64,000 bases of DNA from Stenotrophomonas rhizophila (GTDB lineage: Bacteria > Pseudomonadota > Gammaproteobacteria > Xanthomonadales > Xanthomonadaceae), in contig NZ_CP007597.1 in NCBI RefSeq assembly GCF_000661955.1, forward strand, positions 1,171,605 to 1,235,604, read 5' to 3'. Shown piece after piece: positions 39,082 through 59,418 of the stretch. Within the stretch, counting starts at the first letter, position 1. Every line of letters begins with the position of its first letter. The notes under the pieces were generated by a model, which saw only the letters and a list, made by a program, of their open reading frames with translations, made no database searches and was not told where the DNA came from. Made by a program: the position numbers and the translations under genes.

Positions 39082-39764
39082 GGCGTGGTCTCCTCGACCG
39101 GCGGTGGGGATGGAACCTGGGAGTCGTCGCGCGGCACGGGAGTTCCCGTGGCATCGACCGGCGGCGTATCGGCCGGATCGGCGGCGTTTCTGTCGCGAAC
39201 GGCTTCCGCTTCGATCCGCAGGTCCACCGCGTCGCCGATCATCGACGGCCAGCCAGATACGCCGAACGCGCTGCGGCTGAGCGTGGCGGTGGCGGAGAAA
39301 CCCGCGGTGCGGCGGAACGGGGGCAGCGGGTGACGCTTGAGGGCGTTGAGGGTGACCGCCAGGGTGACCTCGGCGGTGACGCCGTGCAGGGTCAGCTGGC
39401 CGGTTACGTTGGCGTGGGTATCGTCGATGGGCTCGACCCGGGTCGAGACGAACCGGGCCTGCGGGAAGCGCTCGGCATCCAGCAGGTTGCGCGCCAGGGT
39501 AGCCGTGTTCCATTTTTCATCGCCCAGGTCCAGCCGCTGGATCGGAACGCTCACACTGAGGGTGGCGGTCCGCCAGTCCTGCGGATCGAACACCAGCACG
39601 CCTTCGCTGCCGGACACCGTGCCCAGCGCGTGGGAGAAGCCGGCGTGTTCCACCGCGAACAGCACGCGGGTGTGGACCGGATCCAGGCGGTAGGTATCGG
39701 GCGCGGCATGCGCTGCCCAGGGGGCAGTGCACAGCAGCAGGGCAAGGGTCAGGCGCTGGATCAT
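39078..39764 (-). CDS. YceI-family periplasmic protein, copy 2
   Basis: 228 aa. Signal peptide ends AAHAAPDT. The barrel has [58 protein letters not shown] and [19 protein letters not shown]. Compared with copy 1 it has a Pro/Asp-rich C-terminal tail of about 35 residues ([17 protein letters not shown]). It is the first gene of the yceI-cybB-yceI operon and is divergent from the sensor-kinase array. Confidence 0.92.
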
Positions 39765-39884
39765 GGCCGGGCTCCGGGAAGGTCAGGGCCGATCATACGC
39801 ACTGCACCGTTATCGGCAGCAGTGTCATGGCTGCAACAGATCGTGGTGCAACTTTCCGGTTCGGGCGGCCCGGCGGCAGTTGAC

Positions 39885-39898
39885 GCCCGCGCGCGGGC
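39885..39898. promoter_or_regulatory. GC palindrome upstream of hybrid kinase 1
   Basis: GCCCGCGCGCGGGC is a perfect 14-bp palindrome 41 bp before the kinase 1 ATG. Possible regulator site or mRNA hairpin; no direct evidence. Confidence 0.3.
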
Positions 39899-39939
39899 GC
39901 AGGGGCTGTGGGACAATCAGCGGCTACAGGGAGATCTGG

Positions 39940-42900
39940 ATGGCGATGGGAACGCGTGGCTGCTGCGCGGGCATCGTGCTGCTGGTACTGGCACTGTGCC
40001 TGGTGCCGGCGGCGGCATGGGCCGCAGAAACAACGGCTGGATCATCGGCAGAAACGCCGCGCATGCGTCGCCTCGGCGCTGCCGACGGCATGCCGTCGCG
40101 CATGGTGTTGGCGCTGGCACAGGATCGCCAGGGCTACATATGGGCAGCCACCGACGACGGCCTGGCACGCGTGGATGGCGTGGGCCTGCGGGTCTGGCGG
40201 CACGACCCGGCCGACCCCGGCTCGATTCCCGGCAACGAGGTGGAAACCCTGCTGGTGGACCCCATGGACCGCGTGTGGGTGGGGGTGAACGGCGTCGGCC
40301 TGAGCATGTTGGCCCCCGGGCGTGCGGCGTTCCAGCATTTCACCGACCTCAATGCCCGCTGCGATGGCCAGTTCTGGTCGCTGGCCTATGCGGCCAAGTC
40401 GCTGTGGATCGGCACCAACCGGCACGGCATCTGCCGGCGGGGCGAAGACGGCAGCCTGGTGCAGTACCACGCCGATCCCAACGATCCCACCAGCCTGCCC
40501 GATGACACCATTTACACGATGCTGGCCGACCCGAAGGGGCATGTGTGGGTGGGCACCGGTAGTGGCGTGGCCCGCTGGGACGGACAGCGCTTCCATCGCA
40601 TCGCACCGGCATTGCTGGGCGGCAAGAGCGTGTTCCGCCTGACCCGCGAACCCGATGGCACCGTGTGGGCCGGCACCGAAGGCGGCCTGTTCCGCATTGA
40701 TGCCGATGGCAGCGTGCGCAAGGCGCCGTGGACGCTCAGCGCCGATGTGCGGGCGGCCACCGTCATCCATGACCGCAACGGCGGCTATTGGCTGGGAACG
40801 GCCGATGGCCTGTACCGCGGCGACGCGGCCGGCGTGCACCTGCTGGCCGGCGACGCCGGTAGCGGCTTCCTGACCGCGCGCAGTGGCGTGCTGGACATGT
40901 TGCAGGACCACGAAGGCGGACTGTGGGTGGCCATGCTGACCCAGGGGCTGGCCTACCTGCCACCGGGATGGAAGCGCTTTTCCACCTGGTACCAGCTGGA
41001 TGGGAAGCCGCTGGACAGTGTCTACCTGCTGAGCGCCGCCGCGGCCGGCAATGATTTCTACATCGGCGGTGCGCACGGCATCTACCAGCTGGACGCGCAG
41101 GGCACGCTGCGCCAGATCGCCGACGATACGCAGGTGGGCGTGGGCGCCATCTGGTCGGTGCTGCCGCGCGCCGATGGCGCGCTGTGGATCGGTCGGGGCG
41201 GGCGGCTGGGCCTGTACCAGCCACGTACCGGCCAGCTGCGCGAGTGGAAGATCGGCGGCGGTTCGGATGTACGTCAGCGCATCGATCTGATCCGCCAGGC
41301 ACCCAACGGTGAGCTGTGGCTGTCGGTCATGAGCCTGGGCATCCAGCGACGCGATGCGCAGGGCAACCTGCTGGACACCATCCGCATTGAAGAAGGCCGC
41401 GGGCTGACCGAGAACCCGGTCGAGCAGATGCTGTTCGACCCGCGCGGGCAGCTCTGGATCATGGGCGACATGGGCCTGCTGCGCTGGAACGAGGACCGCT
41501 TCGAGCAGGTCCCGGGCATCTCCCGGGGCAGCATCTACGACATCACCTGGACCAGTCCCGGCGACGTCTGGCTGGCGCGCAACGGCGCGCTGGAGCGGTA
41601 CAGCTGGGACGGCCTGAGCATGACCCTGCGCGAGCGCGTGGGTGCTGCGCAGGGTTTGCCGGCGGTATCGATGGGCGGGGTGGTCACCGGCCGTCAGGGC
41701 CAGGTCTGGGCCACCACGCCGCGCGGGCTGGTGCGCTGGGATGGCGCGCAGCGCCGGTTGCGCGTCTACGGTGAGCGCGACGGGCTGCCCGACGTGGAAT
41801 TCAGTGGCCGGCCGCCGGTGCGTGCGGCCAACGGGCGGATGCTGGCAGTGACCGCGACGGGGCTGGTCGGCTTCGACCCGGATGCCGCCGATGTGCCGCT
41901 GCCGCCCTCGCAGCTGGTGATCGACAACGTGCAGGTACGCCGCGACGACGCCGAAGGCCAGCAGTCGCTGCCACCGGATGCGCCGATCGTGCTGGGGCCG
42001 CAGGACCGCGACCTGATCATCACCGCACGGCTGTTGTCCTTCGCCAATCCGCAGGGCAACCGCTATCGCTACCGCGTGTCCGGCTACGACCAGAACTGGG
42101 TGATGCAGGCAGCCGATGGCGAACGCCTGCTGTCGCGCCTGCCCTCCGGCCACTATGCCATCGACGTGCAGGCGGCCACGCCGCAGGGGCAGTGGACGCC
42201 CTCGCGTACGCTGAGCGTGGAAGTGCTGCCGCCCTGGTGGCGCAGCAGCTGGGCGATTCTGGGCTATCTGCTGCTGTGGCTGCTGCTGGTGGCCGTGGTG
42301 GTGTACGTGGCACGCGTGCGCCTGCGCCGTCGCCAGCAATGGCAGCTGACCGTGCACAAGCAGCAGATCGCGGAGCAGGCATCGCAGGCCAAGAGCCAGT
42401 TCCTGGCCACGCTGGGCCACGAAGTGCGCACGCCGATGACCGGCGTGCTGGGCATGAGCGAACTGCTGCTGGCCACGCCGCTGGATGAACTGCAGCGTGG
42501 CTATGCGGCCTCGATCCAGCATGCCGGCACGCACCTGCTGCGGCTGGTCAACGATGCGCTGGACCTGGCCCGTATCGAAGCCGGTCGCCTGGAACTGGAC
42601 ATCCGTCCGTTCGACCTGATGTCGATGCTGGCCCAGGTGCAGGCGCTGATGGAGCCGATGGCGCACCACCGTGGCCTGGCGTTCGAGCGCAGTTTCAATC
42701 TGCCCGGCCCGATCCTGGTCAGTGGCGACGAAATGCGCGTGCGGCAGATCCTGATGAACCTGCTGGGCAATGCGATCAAATTCACCGAGCGCGGGCACGT
42801 AAGCCTGGGCGCCGAGCTGATCGATGGCGGCATGGGCATCATTTTCGAGGTCGCCGACACCGGGCCGGGCATCAACACCGATCAGCAGCAGCGCCTGTTC

Positions 42901-43503
42901 CATCGCTTCGAACAGGCCGATGGCCCGCGTACCGCATCGCGCTATGGCGGAAGCGGGCTGGGCCTGGCGATCTGCCAGGAACTGGCGGTGGCGATGGGCG
43001 GGCGTATCGACATCGACAGCCGGCTTGGCCATGGCGCACGGTTCAGCGTGCAGCTGCCGCTGCCGTGGACGCAGCAGCAGGGCAACGTCGCCAGCCACGC
43101 GTCGGACGCCGCGCGGATCCAGTTGCCGCCCTTGCGACTGCTGCTGGTGGAAGACGACCCGACCGTGGCCGATGTGATTGCCGGCCTGCTGCAGGCGCGT
43201 GGCCACGAGGTGGTGCACGTGCTGCACGGATTGGCCGCGTTGTCGGAAGTGGCTGCGGGCCGCTTCGATGCGGGGCTGCTTGATCTGGACCTGCCGGCGC
43301 TGGACGGCATCGCCATCGCGGGCCAGCTCCGTGCCATGGGCTATGAGTTGCCGCTGATCGCCGTCACGGCACGGTCGGATGCCTACGCCGAACAGCAGGT
43401 GCTGGAGGGCGGTTTCGACGGCTTCCTGCGCAAGCCGGTGACCGGTGACCTGCTCATCGATGCCATTGCCAAGGCGCGTGCACTGCGTCAGCGAGAGAGC
43501 TGA
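39940..43503 (+). CDS. hybrid sensor histidine kinase 1 (beta-propeller, Y_Y_Y, HisKA, HATPase, REC)
   Basis: 1187 aa. AGGGAGA precedes the ATG by six bases. Signal peptide 1-30; periplasmic beta-propeller of Reg_prop blades ([31 protein letters not shown]); a Y_Y_Y domain ([14 protein letters not shown]); one transmembrane helix near 765-790. The kinase core is complete: [13 protein letters not shown] with phospho-His 827, [20 protein letters not shown] and GGSGLGLAI. The receiver has LLLVEDD, LLDLDLP with Asp 1115, and FLRKPVTGD. It would sense a periplasmic ligand, phosphorylate itself and its receiver, and needs an Hpt or regulator elsewhere. First of four paralogs. Confidence 0.94.
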
Positions 43504-43552
43504 GCGCTGCTCGTGATTCATCGCATCAGTCGATAGTCGGCATTCGATCCAA

Positions 43553-43568
43553 TCTGGAATTCTCCAGA
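43553..43568. promoter_or_regulatory. 16-bp palindrome between kinases 1 and 2
   Basis: TCTGGA-attc-TCCAGA, perfect inverted repeat, 89 bp before the kinase 2 start. Candidate operator for the kinase 2-3 pair. Confidence 0.35.
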
Positions 43569-43656
43569 ATGTGATCCCGCGCCGAGGCGGGGGCTGTGTT
43601 CCTGCTGTCGCCGCTCTATCGTTCCCGCGATGACTTGGTTGCCGTTCGATTGACAG

Positions 43657-46600
43657 GTGCGTTTGAGCAGGACAAGGCGGCGCATCGGCAGCCGCTGGCT
43701 GATAGCACTGGTGCTCGGGTGCTGGCCATGGGCCCTGCTGGCGGCCGTGCTCGATCTGCCATGGCCCCGGCAGCTGGGGGTCATCGATGGCCTGCCCACC
43801 ACCGGCATCCACGCCATGGCCGAAGATGCCACCGGCTATCTGTGGATGGCCAGCAGCGAGGGACTGCTGCGCTTCGACGGGCGGCGGTCGCGGGTGTGGG
43901 GGGACGAACACGGGTTGCACGACACCACCTTGCGCGCGCTGCATGTCGATGCCGCCGACAGGGTATGGGTTGGCACCGTCTCGCAGGGGCTGTTGATGCT
44001 GGGAGGTGACCGTCGCCGCTTCGAGCGCGCCGGTACACAGATGCCGTGGGCCGTGCGTAGCGGCACCATCCACGCCATTGCGGGCGGCGGTGGCAGCACG
44101 CTATGGGTGATCGGGTCGGATCATCGTCTCTACATGCTGCCGGCGCTGGATGCGCGCTGGCAGGTGGTGGATGCCGCGGCGGATACCGTCACCGCCCTGG
44201 CCATCGACCACGCCGGGCGTCTGTGGGTGGGAACGTCGCAGGGACTGCGTCGCTTCGCCGACGGCCGCCTGCAGCGGGCCGGTACCCCCCCGGGTGCCGA
44301 CGGTCCGATACAGGCCGTGTGGCCCGATCCCCAGGGCGGCATCCATGCCAGCAACGGGGTGCGCACGTGGCGGGAAGCCAAGGGCCGGACGTCCGGCACC
44401 ACGCCGGGGACCGGGCGACCGCTGCTGCGCAGTACCGATGGCGCCTTGTGGACGCAGCGCGACACGGGCCTGTACCTGTCGCGCGGAACGCACACCCAGC
44501 GCGTTCCCCTCCGGCCGTTGCAGGGGCCGTCAACGCGCGCGGTGGAGATGGACGCGGCGGTGCAGGACCGGCACGGCGACATCTGGTTCCTGAGCAGGAC
44601 GCATGGCGTGTGGCGGCTGCCGGCGCGGTGGCGTGAGTTCACCGCATTGCCCATGGCGGGCGAGGGGCTTCCGGGTATTCGCAGCCACTACGCGCTGGCC
44701 CTGGCCGGGGCGGCGGATGGTCGGCTGTGGGTGGCCGGCAGCCAGGGGCGGCTGCAACGCCTGGACCTGCGCACCGGTGCAAGCAGCGATCATCTTGACC
44801 TTCCCCACGCCGGGCTCAGCGTGCAGCCGGTGGGGATGGCCGAGGATCGGCAGCAGCGGCTCTGGATCGCCAGTGCCGGGCAGTTGACCCGCTACGACCC
44901 TGCACGGGGCGAGGTACGCCGGTGGCCGCTGGACTGGCCATCGGCCGACGGTGCGCTGCATCTGCAGGTCTGCCCGGATGGCACGGTGTGGTTGGCCGGA
45001 AGCGGGCAGATCCAGCAATGGTCGCCGCATGGCCAGCGACAACTGGCGCAGCCACCGGGCGACTTGGGCCTGAGCGGGGCAATGTCGCGACGGCAGCTGC
45101 TGTGCGCGCGCGACGGTGTGCTGTGGGCGACCGACCGCGACGGGCTCAAGACCTGGGATGCGCCCCGTGGCCGCTTCGTGGCCGCCGAACGCACGGGCGC
45201 TGCAGTGGCGGCCATTGCCGAGGCCGACGATGGAAGCCTCTGGCTCAGCCGCCAGGATGCACTGGAACAGCATCGCTGGGATGGACGCGCGCTGCAGCGG
45301 CTGCGCCGGTTCGATGGCGCGCAGGGCTACCCGCTGCTGCGCGCCGAGGCACTGGTGGTGGATGGCCAGGGCGTGGTGTGGGCCGGTGCCGCGCGCGGCA
45401 TGGTGCGGCTGGACCCGGCGCGCGGTGGGGTGCGCGTGCTGGGCAGCGCCGAGGGCCTGCCGGTGCAGGAGATTCTTGCGCACCGGCTGGTACGGCTTGG
45501 CACCGGGGCGCTGGCCGCCGCCGTGCGCGAGGGCGGACTGCTGCTGATCGACCCGGCGGCCGTGGTCGAGCGTGGCCCGCCGCCGGTATTGGTGGTCAAC
45601 GCGGTGCGCGTCGAGCGCAATGGCACCCCGGTGACCGTGCGCGCCGATGCGGCGAACGTGGCATTGGCCAGCAGCGACCGCAACATTCAGATCGCGGTCA
45701 ATCTGCTGGGCGCGGGCGATGCCGATCGCATCCAGCATCGGTTCCGACTGGACGGGCACGACCCGGACTGGGTGGAGACCGGGCCGGTTGCGCTGCGCAC
45801 TTTCGCGCGCCTACCGCCGGGCGAGCACCGCGTGGAGATACAGGCACGGCATGGCGAAGGGACGTGGTCGGCGCCTTCCGAACGGCTGCTGCAGGTCGCG
45901 CCGGGGTGGTGGGAGACCGCCGCAGGCAAGGGTGTAGTACTGATGTTGGTGACCCTGGTGGTGGTCCTGCTGGGCCGGCTGGTCACATGCGTGTTGCGGC
46001 AGCGGGCCGCCCTGCGCGAGGCGCGCGTGCAGCGCTGCCTGGCCGAGCAGGCGTCGGCGCGCCGCACGCGGTTCCTGGGGCGTCTTGGCAGGCGCATCCG
46101 CATCCCGATGACGATCATCGCCGGCTGGAGCGAACTGCTGCTGCAAGGACCGCTCTCGCCGCCACAGCAGGCACGCGCCGACAGCCTGCGCCGCGCAGGC
46201 CTGCACCTGGTGCAACTGGTGGACGACGCCCTGGACCTGGCCAGCATCGAAGCCGGGCGCCTGCAGCTGGACCACGTGGCGTTTTCGCCGGTCGCCCTGC
46301 TGCACGACCTGCACGCGCTGATGGCGCCGGTGGCCGATGCAAAGGGCGTGCGGCTGCACTGGAGCAGCCACCTGGATCCGCAGCGATGGCTGCTGGGCGA
46401 CCCGCGGCGGTTGCGTCAGATACTGCTCAACCTGGTCGGCAATGCGCTGAAGTTCACCGCGCAGGGAAGCGTCGAGGTATCGGTGCAACCGGGTGCGGGA
46501 GGGCAGGGCCTGCAGCTGGTGGTGGCCGACACGGGACCGGGCATGACCGCAGCCCAGGTGCAGCGGTTGTTCCAGCGCTTCGAACAGGCCGATGGGGCCG

Positions 46601-47160
46601 CGACGATGGCGCGCCACGGCGGCAGTGGCCTGGGGTTGGCGATCAGCCGCGAACTGGCCCAGGCGATGGGGGGCGATATCACGGTCGACAGCCGGCCGGG
46701 GCTCGGCACCCGGTTCGAGGTGCAGGTGCCGCTGGCAACCACATCACCCCCGACAATCGCGCCTGCCACGGACGCGGTGACCGGTGAGGCGGTGCTGGTT
46801 GGCATGTCGGTCCTGTTGGTGTTGCCGGATCCGGACATCGCCGAGGTCGTTGCGGCGCTCTTGCGCGCGCAGGGGTGTCGGGTGGCCGTGGGGTGTGATG
46901 ATGCGAGGGCCGTGCCCGGCGTACCGGACGCACCGTGGCAGCTGCTGGCAACCGATCCGGATCTGCGGATCGGCGATGTGTTGGCCGGCGCGTGGCTGGC
47001 GCGGCGCTGGCCCGGGGTGCCGCGACTGGCGTTCACCGCGCGTGCCGACGCCGATGCAGAACGCGATGCGATGGCGGCCGGCTACGCTGCGTTCGTCCGG
47101 CTGCCCCTGGGCGATGCCGCCCTGCGTGCGGCCCTGCTGCAGTGCCGGGCAGGACGATGA
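43657..47160 (+). CDS. hybrid sensor kinase 2: ATPase domain intact, His and receiver sites lost
   Basis: 1167 aa from a GTG; a TTG two codons later is an alternative, both before the signal peptide. Same plan as kinase 1 (propeller, Y_Y_Y, one helix). The phosphorylation box is destroyed in place: FLGRLGRRIRIPM, so His is Arg 812, the catalytic Glu is Arg and Thr is Ile. The HATPase domain is intact (QILLNLVGNALKFT with Asn 929, [19 protein letters not shown]). In the receiver the acidic pair is lost (VLLVLPDPD), the phospho-Asp is Ala 1098 (QLLATDPD) and the Lys is Leu (FVRLPLGD). It can bind ATP but not carry phosphate; it overlaps the next gene by ATGA. Confidence 0.92.
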   Translation: MRLSRTRRRIGSRWLIALVLGCWPWALLAAVLDLPWPRQLGVIDGLPTTGIHAMAEDATGYLWMASSEGLLRFDGRRSRVWGDEHGLHDTTLRALHVDAADRVWVGTVSQGLLMLGGDRRRFERAGTQMPWAVRSGTIHAIAGGGGSTLWVIGSDHRLYMLPALDARWQVVDAAADTVTALAIDHAGRLWVGTSQGLRRFADGRLQRAGTPPGADGPIQAVWPDPQGGIHASNGVRTWREAKGRTSGTTPGTGRPLLRSTDGALWTQRDTGLYLSRGTHTQRVPLRPLQGPSTRAVEMDAAVQDRHGDIWFLSRTHGVWRLPARWREFTALPMAGEGLPGIRSHYALALAGAADGRLWVAGSQGRLQRLDLRTGASSDHLDLPHAGLSVQPVGMAEDRQQRLWIASAGQLTRYDPARGEVRRWPLDWPSADGALHLQVCPDGTVWLAGSGQIQQWSPHGQRQLAQPPGDLGLSGAMSRRQLLCARDGVLWATDRDGLKTWDAPRGRFVAAERTGAAVAAIAEADDGSLWLSRQDALEQHRWDGRALQRLRRFDGAQGYPLLRAEALVVDGQGVVWAGAARGMVRLDPARGGVRVLGSAEGLPVQEILAHRLVRLGTGALAAAVREGGLLLIDPAAVVERGPPPVLVVNAVRVERNGTPVTVRADAANVALASSDRNIQIAVNLLGAGDADRIQHRFRLDGHDPDWVETGPVALRTFARLPPGEHRVEIQARHGEGTWSAPSERLLQVAPGWWETAAGKGVVLMLVTLVVVLLGRLVTCVLRQRAALREARVQRCLAEQASARRTRFLGRLGRRIRIPMTIIAGWSELLLQGPLSPPQQARADSLRRAGLHLVQLVDDALDLASIEAGRLQLDHVAFSPVALLHDLHALMAPVADAKGVRLHWSSHLDPQRWLLGDPRRLRQILLNLVGNALKFTAQGSVEVSVQPGAGGQGLQLVVADTGPGMTAAQVQRLFQRFEQADGAATMARHGGSGLGLAISRELAQAMGGDITVDSRPGLGTRFEVQVPLATTSPPTIAPATDAVTGEAVLVGMSVLLVLPDPDIAEVVAALLRAQGCRVAVGCDDARAVPGVPDAPWQLLATDPDLRIGDVLAGAWLARRWPGVPRLAFTARADADAERDAMAAGYAAFVRLPLGDAALRAALLQCRAGR

Positions 47161-50100
47161 CGTGCCGGTTGGCATGCCGGTGCATGGCCCTGTTGCTGCT
47201 GGCATTGTTCGCATCGGCCGCGGCGGCGCGCTTGCCCGAGGCCGCTCGTTTCACTACCGCCGATGGCCTGCCTTCCAATGCCGTGCACCAGGTTGTCCAG
47301 GATCGGCAGGGGTACCTGTGGTTCGCCACCGACGATGGGCTCGCGCGTTTCGATGGACGCCAGTTCCGCCTCTGGCGCCGCGAGCAGGGATTGGCCGACA
47401 ACGCGCTGCTCAGTCTGGCCGTAGACGCCCAGGACCAGCTCTGGATGGGCACCGGCTATGGCACGCTGATGCGGATGTCGGCCGATCGCAGCCGGATCGA
47501 CGGGTTTGGTGGCGACACCCACCCGGCCTTGGCCGGGGTGCCGATCAGCGCGGTGCTGCCCGACGCAGAAGGCGGGGTGTGGTTCGGTAGCCGTGGCGCC
47601 GGACTGTTCCGACTGGACCCGCAGCAGCGCATCCGCCAGTTCCTGCCGACCCTGCGCGATGACGGGGTGCCGGCGGGCGATGTCGGGTACTTGTTGGCCG
47701 ATGACCGTGGCGTGCTGTGGATAGGCACATCGCACGGGTTGGCCTGTTGGCAGGCCGGGCGCTTCCATCGGCCGCCCGATCCCCGCCTGGCCCAGGCGTC
47801 GGTCACCGGACTGCACCAGGACACCGCAGGCGTGGTGTGGGCCAGCACGGCGGTGGGCCAGTGGCATGGCACCGCGTGCAGCACGTTGCAGGCCGCACCG
47901 GTGCCTGCACCGCGCCGGTTGTTGGGCATCGGTTCCGACGGGGCGCACTGGCTGGCCGAAGCCGACCGGATCTGGCGCCAGCCAGTGGACGGCGCGGCTG
48001 CAACGCCGGTGTCGCTCGCCGCGGCCGGGCGCGGCGCACCGCCCAGCCTGCGGGCGGTCTTCGAGGATCGGGATGGGGGCGTCTGGCTGCTGGGACGCCA
48101 CCTGGGCATGTGGCGCCTGCTGCCGCGCTGGTCCCGGTTCACGCGGCAGCAGGCGCCCGCGCGTCGGTTGGGGCTGGACGGATTTTTGCCCGAATCGGCC
48201 CGGGTAAGTGAGGAACTGGCCTGCGACAACGCACGCTATTGGCGCATCCACAACGGCATGCTGGAGGGCCGTGGACCGGCGCGGCGCCGCCAGGTGCGCT
48301 GGCCGCTTCAGGGGGCTGGGCAGGCACCGCTGCGCGGGCCGGTGTCGCTGCACTGCGCCGGCGACGGTGGCGTGTGGCTGGGCAGCCGCGATGGGCTGAT
48401 GCGTTGGAACGGCGCGCAACTGCACCCGGTCGCCGGTGCACCCGCAGCGATCAGTGCATTGCACGTTGCCGCCGATGGGCACTTGTGGGTGGCCAGCACC
48501 GGCGCCCTGCAACGTTACCAGTGGCAGCAGGGACGCCTGCTGCGCAACCTGCGCCTGGACGACCGCGATGGCATGCCGGAACAGGCGGTGCATGCACTGG
48601 CCACCGACGCCGACGGCGTGCTGTGGGGGGTGTCCCACCATGGCCTGTTGCGGGTTGCAGCCCCTTGGCGTGAGGTGCACATCTACACGCGCGACGACGG
48701 CATCCCACCCGCCCTGCTGAAGGCCCGCCTGCAGGCGCAGGGTCGGCAGATGCTGGCCATTGATGCCGACGGCGCGATCGCGTTCGATCCCGCCCTGCTG
48801 GCGCGCCCGGCCACGCCATCGGCGCTGGTGATCGAGCGGGTGCAGCTGCGTCGCGACCAGCGCCTGCTCACGCTGCCCCCGGCGGCGTCGCTGCAGCTGC
48901 ATGAAGGGGATCGTGAGATCCAGATCACCGCCAGGGTGCTGTCGGCCCAGCTCGACCCCGGCCAGCAGTATCGCTTCCGGCTGCGCGATGGCACACGTGG
49001 TTGGCGCCGAACCCGCAGCCGTGGGACGGTGGAGTTTCCGACGCTGGCGCCGGGTCGGCATGCGCTGGATTACCAGGAGCGCAGCGGCGAGGGCCGTTGG
49101 TCGGCCGCGCAAACCCTGGTGCTCAACGTGCAGCCCGATGGCTGGCCGCACCGGCAGCCGTCGGTTGTGCATGCCGCCAGCGTGGTCGCGATGCTGGGGC
49201 TGTTGGTCTGGCTGGGCGGGCGGAGTCTGGCGCGTTCGCGCGCGCGCCGCGCCGCGGAGCAGCGGCACGCGTGGGCGCAGCAGTCGGCGCAGGCCAAGGC
49301 GCATTACCTGGCCACGTTCGGGCACGAAGTACGCACGCCATTGACCGGCGTACTGGGGATGACCGAGCTGCTGCTGGCCTCGCCGCTGGACGCGCAGCAA
49401 CGGCAGCGACTGCAACGGATCGATCGGGGCGGTCGGCAGTTGCTGGCGATCGTGAACCAGGCACTGGATGACGCCCGCATGGATGCCGGCCGGTTGCCAC
49501 TGCAGTGCAGCGACGTTGATCTGGCGACGCTGCTGCAGCGCTGGCGGCAGTCCGCGCAGCTGGACCTGTGCGCGCGTGGCAGCAGCCTGGCGGCGTGCGT
49601 GGACCTGCCCGGCGCGGCGCCCGTGCATACCGACCCGGCGCGCGTGCAGCAGGTGCTGCAACGGGTAGTGGATGTGATGGTGCAGACGCTGGGCGCGTGC
49701 AGGATGTCGTTCCGTGCCAGCTGGCTGCCAGGCCGCAGCGGCCTGCTGGTGGATATCGACGCGGTCGCCACGTCAGCAGCGCCGCTGCCGTCAGGGACGT
49801 TGTCCAGCGACGCGTTGGAGTCCGCACAGGCCGGCGCGCACGCCTTGGGTGGATGCGTGCGGCTGGTCAGCGCCGGGGGCGGGTCGGGTGGGCGCGTGCT
49901 GCTGAGCCTGCCGATGGTGACGGGCGCGGAATGCGCCACCTGCATACCGGCCCCGTCCGGGGTGGCCGCGGACACGGCGGCGATACGCCACGGTGAGCGG
50001 GTTCTGCTGGTCGAAGACGAGCCTCTGGTGGCCGACGTGCACGCCGGCCTGCTGGCGGCAGGCGGCGCGCAGGTGGTGACCGCCGCGCATGCCCTGGCCG

Positions 50101-50351
50101 CGTTGGGCGAACTGGCGGTGGCGCCATTCGATGTGGTGCTGCTGGACCTGGACCTGCCCGGCGTGGACGGGTGGCAACTGCTGGACATGCTGGCCGCACA
50201 GGGATGCGCGGTGCCGGTTGTGGTCCTGACCGCGCGCCGTGACCCCGACCTTGCCCGACGGTCGGCGGCGGCCGGCGCGGCAGGATGGCTGCACAAGCCG
50301 GCCAGCGGCGAGCAGTTGCTGGCGGCGGTGCGTGCGGCGCGGCAGGCCTGA
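47157..50351 (+). CDS. hybrid sensor kinase 3: His and receiver intact, ATP-binding domain lost
   Basis: 1064 aa from the ATG overlapping the stop of kinase 2. Signal peptide, propeller ([14 protein letters not shown]), Y_Y_Y domain and one helix as in its paralogs. HisKA is intact: YLATFGHEVRTPLTGVLGM with His 723. The following domain is eroded. The N-box reads VLQRVVDVMVQT (Arg 836 and Val 840 for the two Asn), G1 is gone (VDIDAVATS), and the lid and GSGLGL loop are deleted, about 25 residues in all. The receiver is complete (LLVEDEP, LLDLDLP with Asp 997, VLTAR, LHKPASGE). It can accept phosphate but not make it, the mirror image of kinase 2. Confidence 0.92.
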   Translation: MTCRLACRCMALLLLALFASAAAARLPEAARFTTADGLPSNAVHQVVQDRQGYLWFATDDGLARFDGRQFRLWRREQGLADNALLSLAVDAQDQLWMGTGYGTLMRMSADRSRIDGFGGDTHPALAGVPISAVLPDAEGGVWFGSRGAGLFRLDPQQRIRQFLPTLRDDGVPAGDVGYLLADDRGVLWIGTSHGLACWQAGRFHRPPDPRLAQASVTGLHQDTAGVVWASTAVGQWHGTACSTLQAAPVPAPRRLLGIGSDGAHWLAEADRIWRQPVDGAAATPVSLAAAGRGAPPSLRAVFEDRDGGVWLLGRHLGMWRLLPRWSRFTRQQAPARRLGLDGFLPESARVSEELACDNARYWRIHNGMLEGRGPARRRQVRWPLQGAGQAPLRGPVSLHCAGDGGVWLGSRDGLMRWNGAQLHPVAGAPAAISALHVAADGHLWVASTGALQRYQWQQGRLLRNLRLDDRDGMPEQAVHALATDADGVLWGVSHHGLLRVAAPWREVHIYTRDDGIPPALLKARLQAQGRQMLAIDADGAIAFDPALLARPATPSALVIERVQLRRDQRLLTLPPAASLQLHEGDREIQITARVLSAQLDPGQQYRFRLRDGTRGWRRTRSRGTVEFPTLAPGRHALDYQERSGEGRWSAAQTLVLNVQPDGWPHRQPSVVHAASVVAMLGLLVWLGGRSLARSRARRAAEQRHAWAQQSAQAKAHYLATFGHEVRTPLTGVLGMTELLLASPLDAQQRQRLQRIDRGGRQLLAIVNQALDDARMDAGRLPLQCSDVDLATLLQRWRQSAQLDLCARGSSLAACVDLPGAAPVHTDPARVQQVLQRVVDVMVQTLGACRMSFRASWLPGRSGLLVDIDAVATSAAPLPSGTLSSDALESAQAGAHALGGCVRLVSAGGGSGGRVLLSLPMVTGAECATCIPAPSGVAADTAAIRHGERVLLVEDEPLVADVHAGLLAAGGAQVVTAAHALAALGELAVAPFDVVLLDLDLPGVDGWQLLDMLAAQGCAVPVVVLTARRDPDLARRSAAAGAAGWLHKPASGEQLLAAVRAARQA

Positions 50352-50472
50352 GCGGATCGTCGCCGCGTAGCGAACCGTTTACCATGCGGACTGGCCCAGG
50401 ATCGGCGCGCCGGCAGCAACGCGCGCCCGTAGCCTCTGGGGTGCATCCATGGACGATGGGGGAGATCCACCA

Positions 50473-53400
50473 GTGGTGTCATTGCGTTGGCTGCTCCTGA
50501 TCGGGATTGCATGGCTGTGGCCGACCTTCGGCCAGGCCCAGCCCGTGCCGCCAACGCCACGCCAGCTGACCGTGTTCGATGGACTGCCGTCCAACACGGT
50601 CAACCGCATGGCCGAAGATGGCTACGGCTACCTGTGGATCGCCACCAACGACGGCCTGGCCCGCTACGACGGGCGCAACTACCGGGTCTGGCGCGCCGAG
50701 GATGGCCTGCGCGACAACCACGTGTGGAGCGTGCATGTGGATGCCCGCAACCAGCTGTGGATCGGCACCGAGAATGCCGGCCTGGCGATGATGTCGGCCG
50801 ACCGCCGCGAGCTGCGCTTCTTCGACCGCGCCAGCCACCCGCAGATCGGCAGCAACACCATCTGGTCGATCACCTCCACCGCCGATGGCACCGTGTGGTT
50901 CGGGACTTACGAAGGCGGCCTGCACCGCCTGGACCGTGACGGCAAGGTCACCCGTTTCATGCCCGAGCGCGGCAATCCGCGCAGCCTGCCCGCCGCGTCG
51001 GTGACCCAGCTGGCCACCACCCGCGATGGCAGCCTGTGGGTGGGCACGCAGGCCGGCCTGGCACGTTGGACCGGCACGGATTTCGAACGGGTATCCACCC
51101 GCGATGTGCCGGCGCAGGTGATCAACGGCTTGACCGCCGAGATCGATGGCAGCCTCTGGATCGGCACCAATACCGGCGTGTTGGTGCGGCGGCCGGACGG
51201 GCGCTTCGAACCGGCACCGTGGAAGGTGGCGGCCGGCGACCAGGTGCTGGGCATGATGCTGCGCGACGAGCAGGGCGGCTACTGGCTCGATACCCGGTCC
51301 GGGCTGGGGCGCGCCTACGACAACCAGTTCCAGCAGGTGCCGCTGTACAGCGCGGTGGCGCGTGGCCAGGTACGCCCGAACTGGACCGGCGCCTATGAAG
51401 ACCGCGAAGGCGGGATCTGGCTGGCCAGCATCAACGGCGGGTTGTGGCACCTGTTGCCGCGCTGGTGGCAGTTCTCGGTGCTGTCGCGCCTGGAGGACGA
51501 TCCGGGGTCGCTGCGCAATGGTTACGTGCTGGGCACGTCCGCCGCCGCCGATGGCGGGGTATGGGCGGTGGGAACGCACGGGGCGCTGGACAAGTTTGAT
51601 CCGGTCAGCGGCCGTGTGACGCAGCATCGGAGGGGTGTGGACGGGACGCAGTGGCTGCAATCGGTACAGGAAGATCCCCGCGGCCAGGTCTGGATCGGCT
51701 CGGCGTCGGCCTTGCTGCGCTATGACCCCAAGGATGCATCGATCCGCCGCTGGGGGCACGATGCTGCCGTTGATGCGGCGATGGAGGGCCAGCTGGAATC
51801 GTTGGCGGTCTGCGACGGCCAACGCCTGTGGAGCGCTGCGTCGACCGGGTTGCAGCAGCGCGACCTGGACGGTCGCGTGCTGCACCGGGTGCCGGCCGGG
51901 CATGCCGGGCTCGCGGCCGGGCAACTGGCCCTGGACCTGCTGTGCGGACCGGACGATACGCTGTGGGTGGCCACCAACCAGGGCCTGCTGCAGTGGATGC
52001 CGGGCCGTTCACGGTTTGAACCCGTGCCGGGTGGTCCAGCGGCGGCGATCCACGCGCTGGCGCGCGCCGACGATGACAGCGTGTGGCTGTCCGAAGAAGG
52101 GCGGTTGAGCCAGTACCGGTGGCAGGATGGACGGCTGTTGCTGCAGGCGGTCGTCGGCGGTGGCGCGGGCTATCCGGAAGTGTCGGCAACCGGGCTGGTG
52201 GTCGATGCGCAGGGCGTGGTGTGGGCGGCCAGCGCACGTGGCCTGATCCGGGTCGACCCGCAGATGGGCAACGTGCGCCTGTATGGCGTGCACGATGGCC
52301 TGCCCAGCCAGGAGTTCCGTCGCAGCACGCTGAGCCGCACCGCCAGTGGCCGCATCGTTGGCGGCACGCCGGCCGGCGTGGTGGTGTTCGACCCGCGCCA
52401 AGTGCGGCCGTCCAACCGGCGTGCGCCGCTGGTGATCGAACGGGTCGAGGTGCGTCGCGGCGACCGCGTCGCCGACCTGACCCACCTGACCCCGCTGGAG
52501 GTCGCTGACGCCGACCGCGATCTGCGCATCGTGGCGCGTCTGTTGTCGTTCGCCGATTCGTCGTCCAACAGCTACCGCTACCGGCTGGCCGGCTACGACC
52601 CGGACTGGGTGGAAGTGGGGCCGGCCGGCGAGCGCGTGTTCTCGCGGTTGCCACCGGGCCGCTACCGGCTGGAGGTGCAGGCGCGTTCGGCCGACCAGGT
52701 GTGGTCGCGGGTGCAGTCGCTGGAATTCCGGGTGATGCCGCCGTGGTGGCGGAGCATGTCCGGGCTGCTGGTACTGACCTCGATGACGCTGCTGTTGATG
52801 AGCCTCATTGCGTGGTTGTACCGGCGCCGGTTGCAGCGTCGGCATGCCTACCAGCTGGCCTTGCAGAAGCAGGAACTGGCCGAGCAGGCGTCAGCGGCCA
52901 AGACCCGCTTCCTGGCCAACCTGGGGCATGAGGTGCGCACGCCGATGACCGGTGTGCTGGGCATGAGCGAGCTGCTGCTGGGGTCGTCGCTGGACCCGCA
53001 GCAGCGCAGTTGGACCGCGTCCATCCGGCATGCCGGCGAGCATCTACTGCATCTGGTGAACGATGCGCTGGACCTGGCCCGCATCGAGTCCGGGCGGCTG
53101 CAGCTGCAGTCGCAGCCGTTCGACGTCCACAACGTGGTGAGCGATGTCTGCACGCTGATGGCCGCGCTTGCCGAGCAGAAGCACGTGCGTTTCGTGGTGG
53201 ACAACCAGTTGCCACCGGGCCTGGCCAGCGTGGGCGATGCGGTGCGGGTGCGGCAGATCCTGCTCAACCTGCTGGGCAATGCGGTGAAGTTCACCACGCA
53301 TGGCGAGGTGCGGCTGAAGGCAACCACGCTGTCGTCCGAGCGTGGCCTGCATTTCGAGGTATCCGACACCGGGCCGGGCATCAGCGCCGACCAGCAGCAG

Positions 53401-54003
53401 CGCCTGTTCCGGCGTTTCGAGCAGGCCGACGGGGCGCGCACGGCGGCGCAGTACGGCGGCAGCGGGCTGGGCCTGGCGATCTGCCGGGAGCTGGCGTTGG
53501 CGATGCAGGGCCAGATCGGGGTGGAGAGCCAGCTGGGCGTGGGCACGCGCTTCAGCGTGAGCCTGCCGTTGCCGCTGCACATCGCCGCGCTGCCGGCTGG
53601 CGGCGAGCCGGGCAGTGAGAGCCTGCGCCTGCCGCCGCTGCGCATTCTGCTGGTGGAGGACGATGCAACGGTGGCCAGTGTGATCACCGGTCTGCTGGGC
53701 GCGCGCGGGCATGACATGGTGCATGCCGAACATGCGCTGGCTGCGTTGCGCGAGGTCAGCGGGACGCCGTTCGACGTGGCGCTGCTGGACCTGGACCTGC
53801 CGGGTCTGGGCGGCATCGAGTTGGCCGGGCACCTGCACAACCAGGGCTACGAGATGCCGATGATCGCGGTGACGGCGCGTACCGACCCGGGGATCGAGCA
53901 GCAGGTGCACGAGGCCGGTTTCAGCGGCTTCCTGCGCAAGCCGGTGACCGGCGACCTGCTGGTGGAGGCGATCGCGCGGGCGCTGCGGCAACCGCGCGGG
54001 TAG
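50473..54003 (+). CDS. hybrid sensor histidine kinase 4, complete
   Basis: 1176 aa from a GTG that has GGGGGAG eight bases upstream and opens a clean signal peptide (MVSLRWLLLIGIAWLWPTFG). An ATG at 50449 adds eight residues. Propeller blades (YLWIATNDGLARYDG, QLWIGTENAG), Y_Y_Y (SYRYRLAGYDPDWVE), a transmembrane helix, then His[15 protein letters not shown] (His 819), [29 protein letters not shown], and a complete receiver (ILLVEDDA, LLDLDLP Asp 1106, FLRKPVTGD). It is closest to kinase 1. The gap to kinase 3 is 121 bp. Confidence 0.94.
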   Translation: MVSLRWLLLIGIAWLWPTFGQAQPVPPTPRQLTVFDGLPSNTVNRMAEDGYGYLWIATNDGLARYDGRNYRVWRAEDGLRDNHVWSVHVDARNQLWIGTENAGLAMMSADRRELRFFDRASHPQIGSNTIWSITSTADGTVWFGTYEGGLHRLDRDGKVTRFMPERGNPRSLPAASVTQLATTRDGSLWVGTQAGLARWTGTDFERVSTRDVPAQVINGLTAEIDGSLWIGTNTGVLVRRPDGRFEPAPWKVAAGDQVLGMMLRDEQGGYWLDTRSGLGRAYDNQFQQVPLYSAVARGQVRPNWTGAYEDREGGIWLASINGGLWHLLPRWWQFSVLSRLEDDPGSLRNGYVLGTSAAADGGVWAVGTHGALDKFDPVSGRVTQHRRGVDGTQWLQSVQEDPRGQVWIGSASALLRYDPKDASIRRWGHDAAVDAAMEGQLESLAVCDGQRLWSAASTGLQQRDLDGRVLHRVPAGHAGLAAGQLALDLLCGPDDTLWVATNQGLLQWMPGRSRFEPVPGGPAAAIHALARADDDSVWLSEEGRLSQYRWQDGRLLLQAVVGGGAGYPEVSATGLVVDAQGVVWAASARGLIRVDPQMGNVRLYGVHDGLPSQEFRRSTLSRTASGRIVGGTPAGVVVFDPRQVRPSNRRAPLVIERVEVRRGDRVADLTHLTPLEVADADRDLRIVARLLSFADSSSNSYRYRLAGYDPDWVEVGPAGERVFSRLPPGRYRLEVQARSADQVWSRVQSLEFRVMPPWWRSMSGLLVLTSMTLLLMSLIAWLYRRRLQRRHAYQLALQKQELAEQASAAKTRFLANLGHEVRTPMTGVLGMSELLLGSSLDPQQRSWTASIRHAGEHLLHLVNDALDLARIESGRLQLQSQPFDVHNVVSDVCTLMAALAEQKHVRFVVDNQLPPGLASVGDAVRVRQILLNLLGNAVKFTTHGEVRLKATTLSSERGLHFEVSDTGPGISADQQQRLFRRFEQADGARTAAQYGGSGLGLAICRELALAMQGQIGVESQLGVGTRFSVSLPLPLHIAALPAGGEPGSESLRLPPLRILLVEDDATVASVITGLLGARGHDMVHAEHALAALREVSGTPFDVALLDLDLPGLGGIELAGHLHNQGYEMPMIAVTARTDPGIEQQVHEAGFSGFLRKPVTGDLLVEAIARALRQPRG

Positions 54004-55988: not shown

Positions 55989-56340
55989 GGGTGGCCCTAC
56001 CGGTTGCGGGATGGTTGGTGTGACCGTCGGTTGCGATGTGGTTGGTGTGACCGCCGGTGTTTGGGGGTAGAGCCGACCGTTGGTCGGCTGCCCTCCACGC
56101 CGATCGATCAACGCTTACGTCAATCGATGCACGGGTTCGCGTGGCTGCAGTTCTTTCCGGCCTTACGTGTAGCCACCCATGGGGTGGCTCTACCGGTTGC
56201 GGTGTGGTTGGGCGTGACCGCCGGTTCGGATGTGGTTGGGTGTGACCGGCGACGGGGTGTTTGGGGGGTAGAGCCGACCGTTGGTCGGCTGCCCTCCGCG
56301 CGGATGGATCAGCGCTTGCTCAACCGGTGCACGGCCTCGA
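55989..56340. repeat. tandem duplication with SMAG repeats and a hemE tail relic
   Basis: About 155 bp at 55989-56146 recur at 56182-56340. Each unit holds GGTGGCYCTACCGGTTGCGG, TGTGACCG repeats, a GTAG-headed SMAG (56067 and 56268) and the end of hemE. In the left unit the hemE end is decayed: it still reads EPVHRL before an in-frame stop. A third SMAG variant AGCCACCC-atg-GGGTGGCT is at 56171-56189. Confidence 0.75.
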
Positions 56341-57382
56341 CCAGCACGCCCACGTGTTCGGGGTTCATGTCGGGGGACATGCCGTGCCCCAGGTTGAACA
56401 CGTGGCCTTCGCGGGAGCCGCCGTTGCCGTCGGCGTAGCTGTCGAGCACGCGGGCGGCGGCGCGTTCGATGGCTGCGGGGTTGCCGTACAGGGTGGCGGG
56501 ATCCAGGTTGCCCTGCAGGGCGACGCGGCCGCCGGTGCGGGCGAGTGCGTCGGACAGATCGAGGGTCCAGTCCACGCCGAGGGCGTCGGCGCCGGTGTCG
56601 GCCAGTGCGCCCAGGTGCAGGCCGGTGCCCTTGCCGAACAGGATCAGCGGGGTGCGCTGGTCGCCTTGGCCGCGTTCGAGTTCCTGGGCGATGCGGGTCA
56701 GGTAGCGCAGCGAGAATTCGCGGTACATGCCGGGGCTGAGCACGCCGCCCCAGGTGTCAAAGACCTGCAGTACCTGCGCGCCGGCGGCGCGCTGGGCGGC
56801 CAGGTAGGCGATGACCGCGTCGGTGACCACCGACAGCAGCTGGTGCAGGGCGGCCGGTTCGTTCAGGGCCATGGCCTTGATGCGGGCGAAGTCCTTGCTG
56901 CCGCCGCCTTCAACCATGTAGCAGGCCAGGGTCCACGGGCTGCCGGAGAAGCCGATCAGCGGCACGCTGCCGTCCAGTTCGCGGCGGATCACGCGGACCG
57001 CGTCCATGACGTAGCGCAGTTCGGTTTCCATGTCCGGCACGGCCAGCTTGGCGATGGCGGCGGTGTCGCGTACCGGGTGACGGAACTTGGGGCCTTCGCC
57101 ATCGACGAAGTACAGCTCCAGGCCCATCGCGTCGGGAATGGTGAGGATGTCCGAGAACAGGATCGCCGCATCCAGGTCGAAGCGACGCAGCGGCTGCAGG
57201 GTCACTTCGCAGGCGATGTCGGGGTTCTTGGCCATGGCCAGGAAGCTGCCGGCCTTGGCGCGGGTGGCGCGGTACTCGGGCAGGTAGCGGCCGGCCTGGC
57301 GCATCAGCCAGACGGGGGTGCAGTCCACCGGTTCGCGGCGCAGGGCGCGCAGCAGGCGATCATGGCGGGAGGGGCTGGTCAC
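56309..57382 (-). CDS. hemE: uroporphyrinogen decarboxylase
   Basis: 357 aa with a GTG start, AAGGA eight bases upstream. It decarboxylates uroporphyrinogen III to coproporphyrinogen III in haem synthesis. Signature [17 protein letters not shown] near the N-terminus, [14 protein letters not shown] with the substrate-binding Asp, [16 protein letters not shown], and the late [16 protein letters not shown]. Standard length. Downstream is a duplicated fragment of its own 3' end. Confidence 0.98.
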
Positions 57383-57445
57383 GTAACGCTTCCTTGGACT
57401 CTGGTGGCACGGGGCCGGGATGAAAGAGCGGGGTTGGGCCGGCGC

Positions 57446-57697
57446 TCAGCGCGGCGCGGTGCCGCTGGTGTAGGTGATCTGGTAGCCACGTTGCAGGTGG
57501 ATGTCGCGCGTCTTCTCGAAGGCGCGCTGGGCCGGCTCGGCCTCCGCGAACACCTCACACCGCAACCGCGCGCGACCGCCAACCACGCCCGATTCGTGCA
57601 GCAGTTCCCAACTGCCGAACAGGTCCGGCTGCAGGGTCAGCTGAAGGTAGCGGGCCGGTTCAGTGCCGCCGGGGTGGTGCTGCAGGAAGACGCGCAT
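57446..57697 (-). CDS. small WGR-domain protein
   Basis: 83 aa, a single WGR-like domain: YLQLTLQPDLFGSWELLHE, then RLRCEVFAEAEPAQRAFEKT and a terminal QRGYQI. WGR domains bind nucleic acids in PARPs and in bacterial stand-alone proteins. Here the name-giving W-G-R is altered to ESGVVGGRA, so the nucleic-acid contact may be changed. It lies between aroB and hemE on the same strand, 63 bp before hemE. Confidence 0.78.
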   Translation of the reverse strand: MRVFLQHHPGGTEPARYLQLTLQPDLFGSWELLHESGVVGGRARLRCEVFAEAEPAQRAFEKTRDIHLQRGYQITYTSGTAPR

Positions 57698-57769
57698 GGC
57701 CGCGATTGTAGCCGTGAACGCCGGGGCAGGCCGTGGTGGCCCACCCCACCTGCGGCCAACGGTCGCAGG

Positions 57770-58879
57770 TCAGCGGGCGGCCAGCACGCGCAGTACGTCG
57801 GCTTCGTCGACGTCGGCCACCACTTCGGCGCGGCCGATGCCCCGCCACAGCACCAGGCGCAGGCGCCCGGCGATGTTCTTCTTGTCCAGGCGCATGCGCG
57901 CCAGCAGCGCCTCGGGGGCCAGCCCGGCGGGAATCTCCACCGGCAGTTCGTAGCGCAGCAGCAGGTCGCGCAGCTGCGCGGTGTCGGCCTCGCTGCTCAT
58001 GCCCAGCTGGGCCGACAGGCGCGCCGCCAGCACCATGCCCACCGCGACCGCTTCGCCGTGGTTGAGGTTGTCGTTGCCGGGCGCGCCATAGCCCTGTTCG
58101 GTTTCGATTGCATGGCCGAAGGTATGGCCGAGATTGAGCAAGGCGCGTTCGCCCTTTTCATGCGGGTCGCGGGCCACGATCTCGGCCTTGTGCTCGCAGC
58201 TGCGCGCGATCGCCTGGGCCAGCGCGGTATCGTCGCCGGCCAGCAGCGCGGCGTGTTCGGCCTGCAGCCACTGGAAGAACAGCGGGTCGCGGATGGCGCC
58301 GTACTTGATCACCTCGGCCAGCCCGGCGCGCAGTTCGCGCGGCGGCAGGGTGCGCAGCGCGGCCGTGTCGGCGATCACCGCGCGCGGCGGGTGGAACGCG
58401 CCGACCAGGTTCTTGCCTTCGGGGATGTCCACGGCCGTTTTGCCGCCCACCGAGGAGTCGACCATCGCCAGCAGCGAGGTGGGCAGCTGCACGCAGTCGA
58501 CGCCGCGCATCCAGCAGGCGGCCGCGAAGCCGGCCAGGTCGCCGGCAACGCCGCCACCCAGGGCCAGCACGCAGGCATCGCGGGTTGCGCCAAGCGCGGC
58601 CAAGGCGGTGATGGCCGCGCCGAAGTTGGCCAGAGTCTTGGACGCTTCACCGGCCGGCAGCACCAGCTCGCCGACCCGCAGGTCCGGGCGTGCGGCCAGC
58701 AGCGCTGCTTTCACGCCGGCGAGGTACAGCGGGGCCACCGAGGAATCGCTGAGCAGCAGCACGTGACGGCCGCGCACGTGGCGGGCAAGCAGGTCACCCT
58801 GGCCCAGCAGGCCGGGGCCGATATGGATGGTGTAGGGCGTGTCGCCGCCAACGGCGACGGTACGGGGGGCGGGGGTCAT
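57770..58879 (-). CDS. aroB: 3-dehydroquinate synthase
   Basis: 369 aa from [14 protein letters not shown], whose ATG overlaps the aroK stop (ATGA). It converts DAHP to 3-dehydroquinate, the second shikimate step, using NAD and zinc or cobalt. Motifs: [15 protein letters not shown] (NAD), [31 protein letters not shown] with the metal Glu, and the metal His in [11 protein letters not shown] and [10 protein letters not shown]. Confidence 0.97.
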
Positions 58880-59418
58880 GCGGGTGGGTCCTGTCGCTGC
58901 CATTGGGCGGCCAACCGCAGTACGAGCTGCGCGGTGGCCTCGGCGGGGGTGTAGAGGTCGGTATCCAGGGCCAGGTCGGCCAACGCGCGGTACAGCGGGT
59001 CGCGCAGCGCCGCCATCTCGTGCAGCACCTGCTCGCGGTCCGGGCGCTGCAGCAGCGGCCGGGTGCGGTCGCGGGCCAGCCGTTCCAGCTGCCCGGCCAC
59101 GCTGACCCGCAGGTACACCACGAAACCGCGTTCGGCGATGATGGCGCGGTTGTCGGGGTCCAGCACGGCGCCGCCGCCGGTGGAGACCAGCTGGTTGCGC
59201 CCGCGCAGCAGGGTCTGCAGCGCCTGGCGTTCGTACTGGCGGAAGCCGGCCTCGCCGGAGTGCTCGAAGATCGCCGGGATGCTGGCCCCGGCGGCGTCCA
59301 CGATGGCCTGGTCGGCGTCCACGAAGTCCAGCGTGAAGCGCTCGGCCAGGCGGCGCCCGATGCAGGTTTTGCCGGCGCCCATCGGGCCAATCAGGATCAG
59401 GTTCGGAGCAGGGTTCAT
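58876..59418 (-). CDS. aroK: shikimate kinase
   Basis: 180 aa from [20 protein letters not shown]. Walker [13 protein letters not shown], substrate-binding [21 protein letters not shown] and [13 protein letters not shown], then the lid with RPLLQ. It phosphorylates shikimate. aroK-aroB is a conserved operon with coupled translation. Confidence 0.97.

Follow-up and report, generated by a model that had tools for sequence, protein, structure and literature searches.

Adjacent membrane sensor kinases with reciprocally eroded catalytic cores: a probable two-subunit histidine kinase in one Stenotrophomonas clade

Histidine kinases usually act as homodimers. Several departures from this pattern have been described. 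In Rhodobacter sphaeroides catalysis and the phosphorylated histidine reside on separate proteins, CheA3 and CheA4, and only their mixture autophosphorylates (PMC3591291); in Synechocystis a histidine kinase is divided between two proteins, Hik36 and Hik43, which interact in a two-hybrid assay (PMC7656254). Sensor kinases also signal by hetero-interaction, as with GacS and RetS of Pseudomonas aeruginosa, where RetS is without kinase activity (PMC5992135), and the native paralogs ChrS and HrrS of Corynebacterium glutamicum heterodimerise in a two-hybrid assay, a ChrS version defective in its ATPase (CA) domain being functional (PMC9491836). A count in SMART gives 1556 of 42417 HisKA proteins without HATPase, 711 of which have a phosphatase motif and might represent split bifunctional kinases (PMC3591291), and pseudo-histidine kinases are recognised in a 2025 review as partly defective signalling proteins (PMC12632262). 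Here we describe two adjacent genes, K2 and K3, in a stretch of 64,000 nucleotides of Stenotrophomonas rhizophila (positions 1,171,605 to 1,235,604 of NZ_CP007597.1; the window), where they lie between two intact paralogs, K1 and K4, in a head-to-tail array of four reg_prop sensor kinases (39727-54003; Table 1). To judge by their motifs, the half of the catalytic core that K2 has lost is strongly conserved in K3 and vice versa, and the two genes are inherited as a pair; we consider it likely that they form two subunits of one obligate heteromeric transmembrane class-I histidine kinase.

The resemblance to CheA3 and CheA4 is that, by sequence, K2 would hold the catalytic part and K3 the histidine. 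As described, CheA3 and CheA4 belong to the CheA class and have lost whole domains (P1 in CheA4, P3 and P4 in CheA3), whereas K2 and K3 are predicted full-length class-I (HisKA) transmembrane sensors with propellers of their own and residue-level erosion of opposite domains; Pfam lists HisKA, HATPase_c, Response_reg and Reg_prop in them, and neither the Hpt nor the CheW domain of a CheA-type kinase. Hik36-Hik43 is a CheA homologue cut in two and encoded at distant loci, in contrast to the adjacent paralogous sensors K2 and K3. RetS down-regulates GacS, and the portion of that report considered here describes no reciprocal loss, unlike the situation in K2 and K3 (PMC5992135), while the ChrS defect is a frameshift from laboratory evolution, its truncated form was not seen to heterodimerise and HrrS remains the kinase (PMC9491836). 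We found no split kinase arising by reciprocal erosion of full-length membrane sensors in the openly licensed literature, searched by titles and abstract openings, a search that leaves absence from print unproven. The split kinases that we did find are CheA-type proteins without whole domains, and K2 and K3 appear to be a conserved class-I membrane case in which the missing half lies in an adjacent full-length paralog.

Conservation was followed in two sets of relatives. Profiles of K2 and K3, searched against 91 genomes of the genus, gave 20 complete clusters (18, plus two further ones; the set of 18 is without the K2 of G015 and the first K2 piece of G085), K2-type proteins being told from K4 by score (1308-1918 bits against at most 1079). 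The G085 contig, JAHREJ010000001.1, comes from a record titled Bacillus subtilis SK7B5 and carries a Stenotrophomonas-type segment, so it is mislabelled or contaminated. In a search of 5.8 billion public proteins, the best 120 of 1018 matches to the K3 profile included 47 K3-type proteins (at least 1227 bits, against at most 919 for ordinary kinases), and the best 120 of 837 matches to the K2 profile included 38 K2-type proteins (at least 1295 bits). Because some of the public proteins come from the cluster genomes, the public and cluster counts are not independent.

K1 and K4 adjoin the pair and share its architecture (reg_prop/Y_Y_Y/HisKA/HATPase/receiver), with intact boxes and slow evolution, and each combines Reg_prop, a HisKA with its histidine, HATPase_c and a working receiver in one chain, as expected of a class-I hybrid kinase; K2 lacks the histidine, the receiver acidic pair and the receiver lysine, and K3 lacks HATPase_c. 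Aligned with K1 and K4, K2 reads LGRRIRIP at the site of their LGHEVRTP, which bears out an earlier sequence-only reading of this DNA that had noted RRIRIP for HEVRTP and R812 in place of the histidine. That reading had also called the ATP-binding boxes of K2 intact, and the N, G1, F and G2 boxes are indeed all present, within a HATPase_c match at E = 1.2e-31. The two asparagines, the aspartate, the two glycines and the G2 glycines are each found in 38/38 public K2-type proteins, the F-box residue being phenylalanine in 36 and tyrosine in two, and the N, G1 and G2 boxes are kept in all 20 complete clusters. The acceptor box has gone the other way: the glutamate is lost in all 38 public proteins and the histidine and the threonine in 36 each, and among the clusters the histidine is gone in 19 (kept in G047) and the glutamate is Arg or Gln in 19 (Asp in G041).

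The receiver of K2 is disabled because its acidic pair is replaced by L1056 and P1057 and its lysine by L1149, a leucine that had already been reported and that stands in 38/38 public K2 proteins, none of which carries a receiver annotation. Its aspartate is retained: the alanine once placed at this position (A1098) was a misalignment, and the column holds D1100 of the motif ATDPDLR, kept in the 18 and the two further clusters and in all 38 public K2 proteins. The Asp-Pro pair (D1100, P1101) and an R-L-P at the lysine motif are invariant across the K2 alignments. The pseudo-receiver thus appears to be conserved for a role other than ordinary phosphorylation. Within the DHp domain, W824 (codon 46126-46128) is Trp in 20/20 K2 and Met in all K1 and K4 examined and in 85% of K3, and R803 is fixed in K2 only, Lys standing there in K1, K3 and K4; these K2-only residues are possible candidates for a determinant of pairing specificity or heterodimer formation.

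K3 shows the opposite pattern. As the earlier reading had it, H723, D997 and K1047 are kept and the N-box asparagine pair, the G1 box and the G2 loop are missing, and we find the F box absent as well. Pfam matches HisKA and the receiver family in K3, and none of 18 K3 proteins (the source and 17 relatives) gives a HATPase_c match at E ≤ 10, a threshold to be read with the fact that HMMER filters discard most matches above about 0.1; HATPase_c is likewise annotated on none of the 47 public K3-type proteins. In these 47 the His, Glu and Thr of the acceptor box are each present without exception, and the N-box asparagine pair, the G1 aspartate, the F-box phenylalanine and the first G2 glycine are lost without exception. 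The 20 complete clusters agree, with the same three residues kept and the ATPase boxes absent in every one. The receiver is less constant (Asp in 36/47 and Lys in 33/47 public proteins), and its aspartate is lost in 4 of 18 clusters (G031, G042, G074 and G041) and kept in both further clusters. The claim that the two proteins together hold exactly one working copy of every part therefore fails in relatives, the K3 receiver aspartate being lost in those four clusters and in 11 of the 47 public proteins. Both K2 and K3 have signal-peptide-like and transmembrane-like hydrophobic segments by hydropathy, in line with what had been proposed, but the full propellers claimed with them do not hold for the source K3, which is without about 80 propeller residues. 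This stretch (alignment columns 340-446) is kept in 5 of 18 K3 proteins and missing in the other 13, including that of the source genome; it appears to be a blade-scale deletion in one lineage.

The boxes of K1 and K4 are intact in the 20 complete clusters, six K4 motifs are found in 86/86 K4 proteins (with the N-box and Asp patterns widened to observed variants), and the acceptor histidine is present in 146 of 148 other listed public proteins, the exceptions being P0093, with Tyr, and P0163, a fragment without the kinase core. In G063, K1 is split by a frameshift near the ATPase domain, its boxes lying on the two pieces, and K2, K3 and K4 are open. The histidine and the ATPase function are thus predicted on different proteins by motifs and Pfam alike, the K2 proteins of G047 (P0128) and P0156 being exceptions as to the histidine. 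The paired degeneracy anticipated earlier extends across the 20 complete clusters and the 38 K2 and 47 K3 public proteins, and because the same pattern recurs in all 20 clusters with one histidine exception (the K2 of G047), a chance one-off is very unlikely and was rejected.

Among twenty-column windows of the cores (propellers were unranked and the broken K1 of G063 omitted), the acceptor box of K3 is the top of 425, with a mean identity of 0.92 where the core as a whole averages 0.45; in K2 the N-box is the top of 428, at 0.94 where the core averages 0.55. The N-box window of K3 ranks 286 of 428. The ratio of nonsynonymous to synonymous substitution rates (dN/dS; Nei-Gojobori with bootstrap, 8 domains in 9 genome pairs) has an interval below 1 in 71 of 72 tests, so both reading frames are under purifying selection, as had been predicted, relaxation being generally greatest in the K3 ATPase domain. 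Frames are open in 19/20 K2 and 20/20 K3 of the complete clusters. The disrupted frames and dN/dS near 1 of a pseudogene are therefore not seen, one K2 frameshift in the draft G085 aside.

A gene tree built from 12 genomes with 7 outside proteins recovers both K2 and K3 as monophyletic groups and places them as sisters, with support of 1.000 from propeller plus DHp and 0.915 from DHp only. The genes overlap by ATGA at 47157-47160, as first read, and each of the 18 clusters examined has a candidate K3 start at -4 or -1, counted from the K2 stop; the other junctions are mostly gapped, two K3-K4 junctions also offering a start at -4.

The two genes also travel together. K2 and K3 occur in an identical set of 20 of the 91 genomes, with the pair between K1 and K4, and neither is found alone, as had been foreseen, save in two drafts, G015 and G082, whose K2 ends at a contig edge and cannot be judged. 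In a K4 tree covering 86 of the 91 genomes (G016, G054, G082, G083 and G084 are omitted), the 20 carriers, the partial G015 and the non-carrier G077 form one clade with support of 0.999, and a 29-genome tree from K1 and K4, which includes just 9 non-carriers, lacks G077 and takes the longer piece of the broken G063 K1, agrees on the carrier clade. G077 has K1 followed directly by K4, with no K2- or K3-type match, and because it is nested among carriers it appears to have lost K2 and K3 together; both parts are thus retained in the same 20 genomes and absent together from G077. Scattered horizontal acquisition was rejected, as the K4 tree unites the carriers in a single clade, with G077 inside it. 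Wider spread in the family was likewise rejected: the K3 type was found at E ≤ 1e-280 in 4 of 297 family genomes (54 genera drawn), all four of the same genus, in a search that scored only two candidates per genome and could miss divergent pairs.

Rates of change were compared over 33 branches in 18 of the 20 carriers (without G061 and G063), the nucleotide clock being taken from two neighbouring genes, a serine dehydratase and an alpha/beta hydrolase. The raw correlation of K2 with K3 is 0.95, against 0.37 and 0.44 for K2 and K3 with the control hydrolase, and the partial correlation with the clock, K1 and K4 held fixed is 0.86 (p = 1.6e-10). The remaining partial correlations are 0.20 for K2-K4, 0.20 for K3-K4, -0.17 for K2-K1, 0.16 for K3-K1 and 0.50 for K1-K4. 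By domain, against a poorer reference built from K1 and K4, the propellers give 0.83 and the CA domain of K2 with the DHp of K3 gives 0.51; this reference was superseded by the two-gene clock because K1 and K4 are anti-correlated there by construction. On balance, the rate covariation favours K2 and K3 as mutual partners, in a small sample and between two fast genes.

On known histidine-kinase biochemistry, the DHp domains of K2 and K3 would associate laterally, signals perceived by the two periplasmic propellers would lead the K2 ATPase domain to phosphorylate H723 of K3 in trans, and the phosphoryl group would pass from H723 to a receiver. A homodimer of K2 or of K3 would be unable to autophosphorylate, and output would then depend on the presence of both; with its HExxT retained, K3 could pass phosphoryl groups to a receiver and probably also remove them. 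In the source genome the phosphoryl group may move to D997 of K3 and then to an HPt and a response regulator encoded elsewhere. Where the K3 receiver has lost its aspartate the group must go to another receiver, possibly that of K1 or K4. We lean towards a fuller account in which tandem duplication and reciprocal catalytic loss gave a heteromeric kinase acting as a two-propeller AND gate in one Stenotrophomonas clade, its product perhaps passing to the flanking receivers. If true, the pair would clearly exemplify duplication leading on to obligate heteromerisation in two-component signalling and would offer a clean test of trans-phosphorylation, since only one direction is possible; it would also allow tests of DHp partner choice among close paralogs within one cell and of whether splitting yields switch-like responses, as modelled in PMC3591291.

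Several observations weigh against an obligate K2-K3 kinase. The acceptor histidine survives in P0128 and P0156, both without the glutamate, and the eroded acceptor box of K2 retains a fair degree of conservation (45th of 425 windows). The single dN/dS interval that reaches 1 belongs to the K3 ATPase domain in the pair G047-G068 (0.74, interval 0.47-1.12). The pair is dispensable, being missing from G077 and from most of the genus, and the K2 propeller of G085, a draft assembly, is frameshifted beside an open K3. Long-branch attraction may account in part for the grouping of K2 and K3 as sisters. As to the rates, K2 and K3 change at about four times the pace of K1 and K4, so their correlation can be inflated; the raw correlations with K4 (0.82 for K2, 0.84 for K3) and K1 (0.56 and 0.61) are themselves substantial, and no significant covariation is seen between the DHp domains of K2 and K3, where the two proteins would meet (r = 0.27, p = 0.14, K1+K4 reference). 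Of the two-subunit idea as first put forward, paired conservation, purifying selection and co-occurrence have been upheld, while A1098 and one working copy of every part have not, and a frameshift, named there in advance as contrary evidence, occurs in the K2 of one draft genome.

The partners could also be differently drawn, with K3 as an acceptor for K1 or K4 and K2 phosphorylating or modulating K1 or K4 in the style of RetS with GacS, which is a complete kinase. K1 and K4 flank the pair with intact boxes (the G063 K1 is frameshifted), the acceptor box of K3 is almost identical to theirs, the raw rate correlations with K4 are high and in the 4 of 18 clusters without the K3 receiver aspartate the phosphoryl group must leave for another receiver. 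However, K2 and K3 occur together whereas other species retain K1 and K4 but have neither of the two, the frame overlap joins K2 to K3 while the remaining junctions are mostly gapped, and the rates of K2 and K3, after correction for the clock and the remaining kinases, covary with each other and not with those of K1 or K4, so that we regard cross-pairing as unlikely.

Somewhat more doubtful is a switchable phosphatase or phosphate sink, in which K3 dephosphorylates shared receivers in a conformation governed by K2 when it binds ATP, with no real kinase activity. It would accommodate the glutamate and threonine of K3, which at 47/47 are more constant than the receiver aspartate at 36/47, but it leaves the reciprocal losses as coincidence, and the N, G1 and G2 residues of K2, at 38/38, go beyond the apparent needs of a nucleotide switch. 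That K2 and K3 are non-catalytic pseudokinases, decoy or allosteric sensor partners kept for ligand binding or complex formation, is very improbable: the fast evolution of both, the pseudo-receiver of K2 and the eroded ATPase domain of K3 are in keeping with it, but the remaining catalytic boxes are the most conserved window of each core. Decay of duplicated kinases to pseudogenes, to which the G085 frameshift, the joint absence from G077 and the high divergence might point, is scarcely credible and is rejected for the clade as a whole, since the frames are open as given above, dN/dS lies well below 1 and the catalytic boxes stay constant though K3 is only 36-45% identical to the source K3 in the 13 more distant of 17 relatives compared.

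Table 1. Features of the K1-K4 array, in window coordinates
Feature	Position	Strand	Remarks
K1, intact reg_prop hybrid histidine kinase	39727..43503	+	longest open reading frame; flanks the K2/K3 pair
K2, proposed catalytic (ATP) subunit	43657..47160	+	1167 aa; reg_prop / Y_Y_Y / transmembrane-like segment / eroded HisKA / intact HATPase_c / pseudo-receiver
K2 former phospho-acceptor box	46084..46107	+	LGRRIRIP; R812 at His position, R813 for Glu, I816 for Thr
K2 HATPase_c	46396..46737	+	intact ATP-binding boxes: N925, N929, D958, G960, G962, G989, G991, G993
K2 pseudo-receiver	46810..47136	+	acidic pair and Lys lost (L1149); Asp D1100 kept
K2-K3 start/stop overlap	47157..47160	+	ATGA
K3, proposed phospho-acceptor subunit	47157..50351	+	1064 aa; reg_prop / transmembrane-like segment / intact HisKA / eroded ATPase domain / receiver
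K3 HisKA	49302..49490	+	with FGHEVRTPLTG; H723 codon 49323-49325
K3 eroded catalytic domain	49572..49946	+	without N, G1, F or G2 box; boundaries approximate
K3 receiver	50001..50333	+	with D997 and K1047
K4, intact reg_prop hybrid histidine kinase	50449..54003	+	flanks the pair

The K1 coordinates are those of the longest open reading frame, and its true start probably lies 3' of 39727. K1 shares 43% identity with K4 and 32% with each of K2 and K3. A longer open reading frame from 46935 is merely K3 extended upstream within K2, and the K3 start is taken as the ATG of the ATGA overlap. By Pfam, none of the 10 open reading frames scanned (window 33481-63963) encodes a response regulator or an HPt; the only related match among them is a sigma-54 activator (62716-63963), without a receiver match, and the whole genome has 12 Hpt matches. 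A promoter and terminator scan gave no promoter-like sites and one terminator-like site, against 1.6 expected by chance. Downstream of the array, the open reading frame at 56261-58954 (+ strand, 897 aa) has no Pfam match at E ≤ 0.001 and a lower GC content at third codon positions (GC3 0.74), and it lies near other open reading frames of lower GC3, in a region that was possibly acquired.

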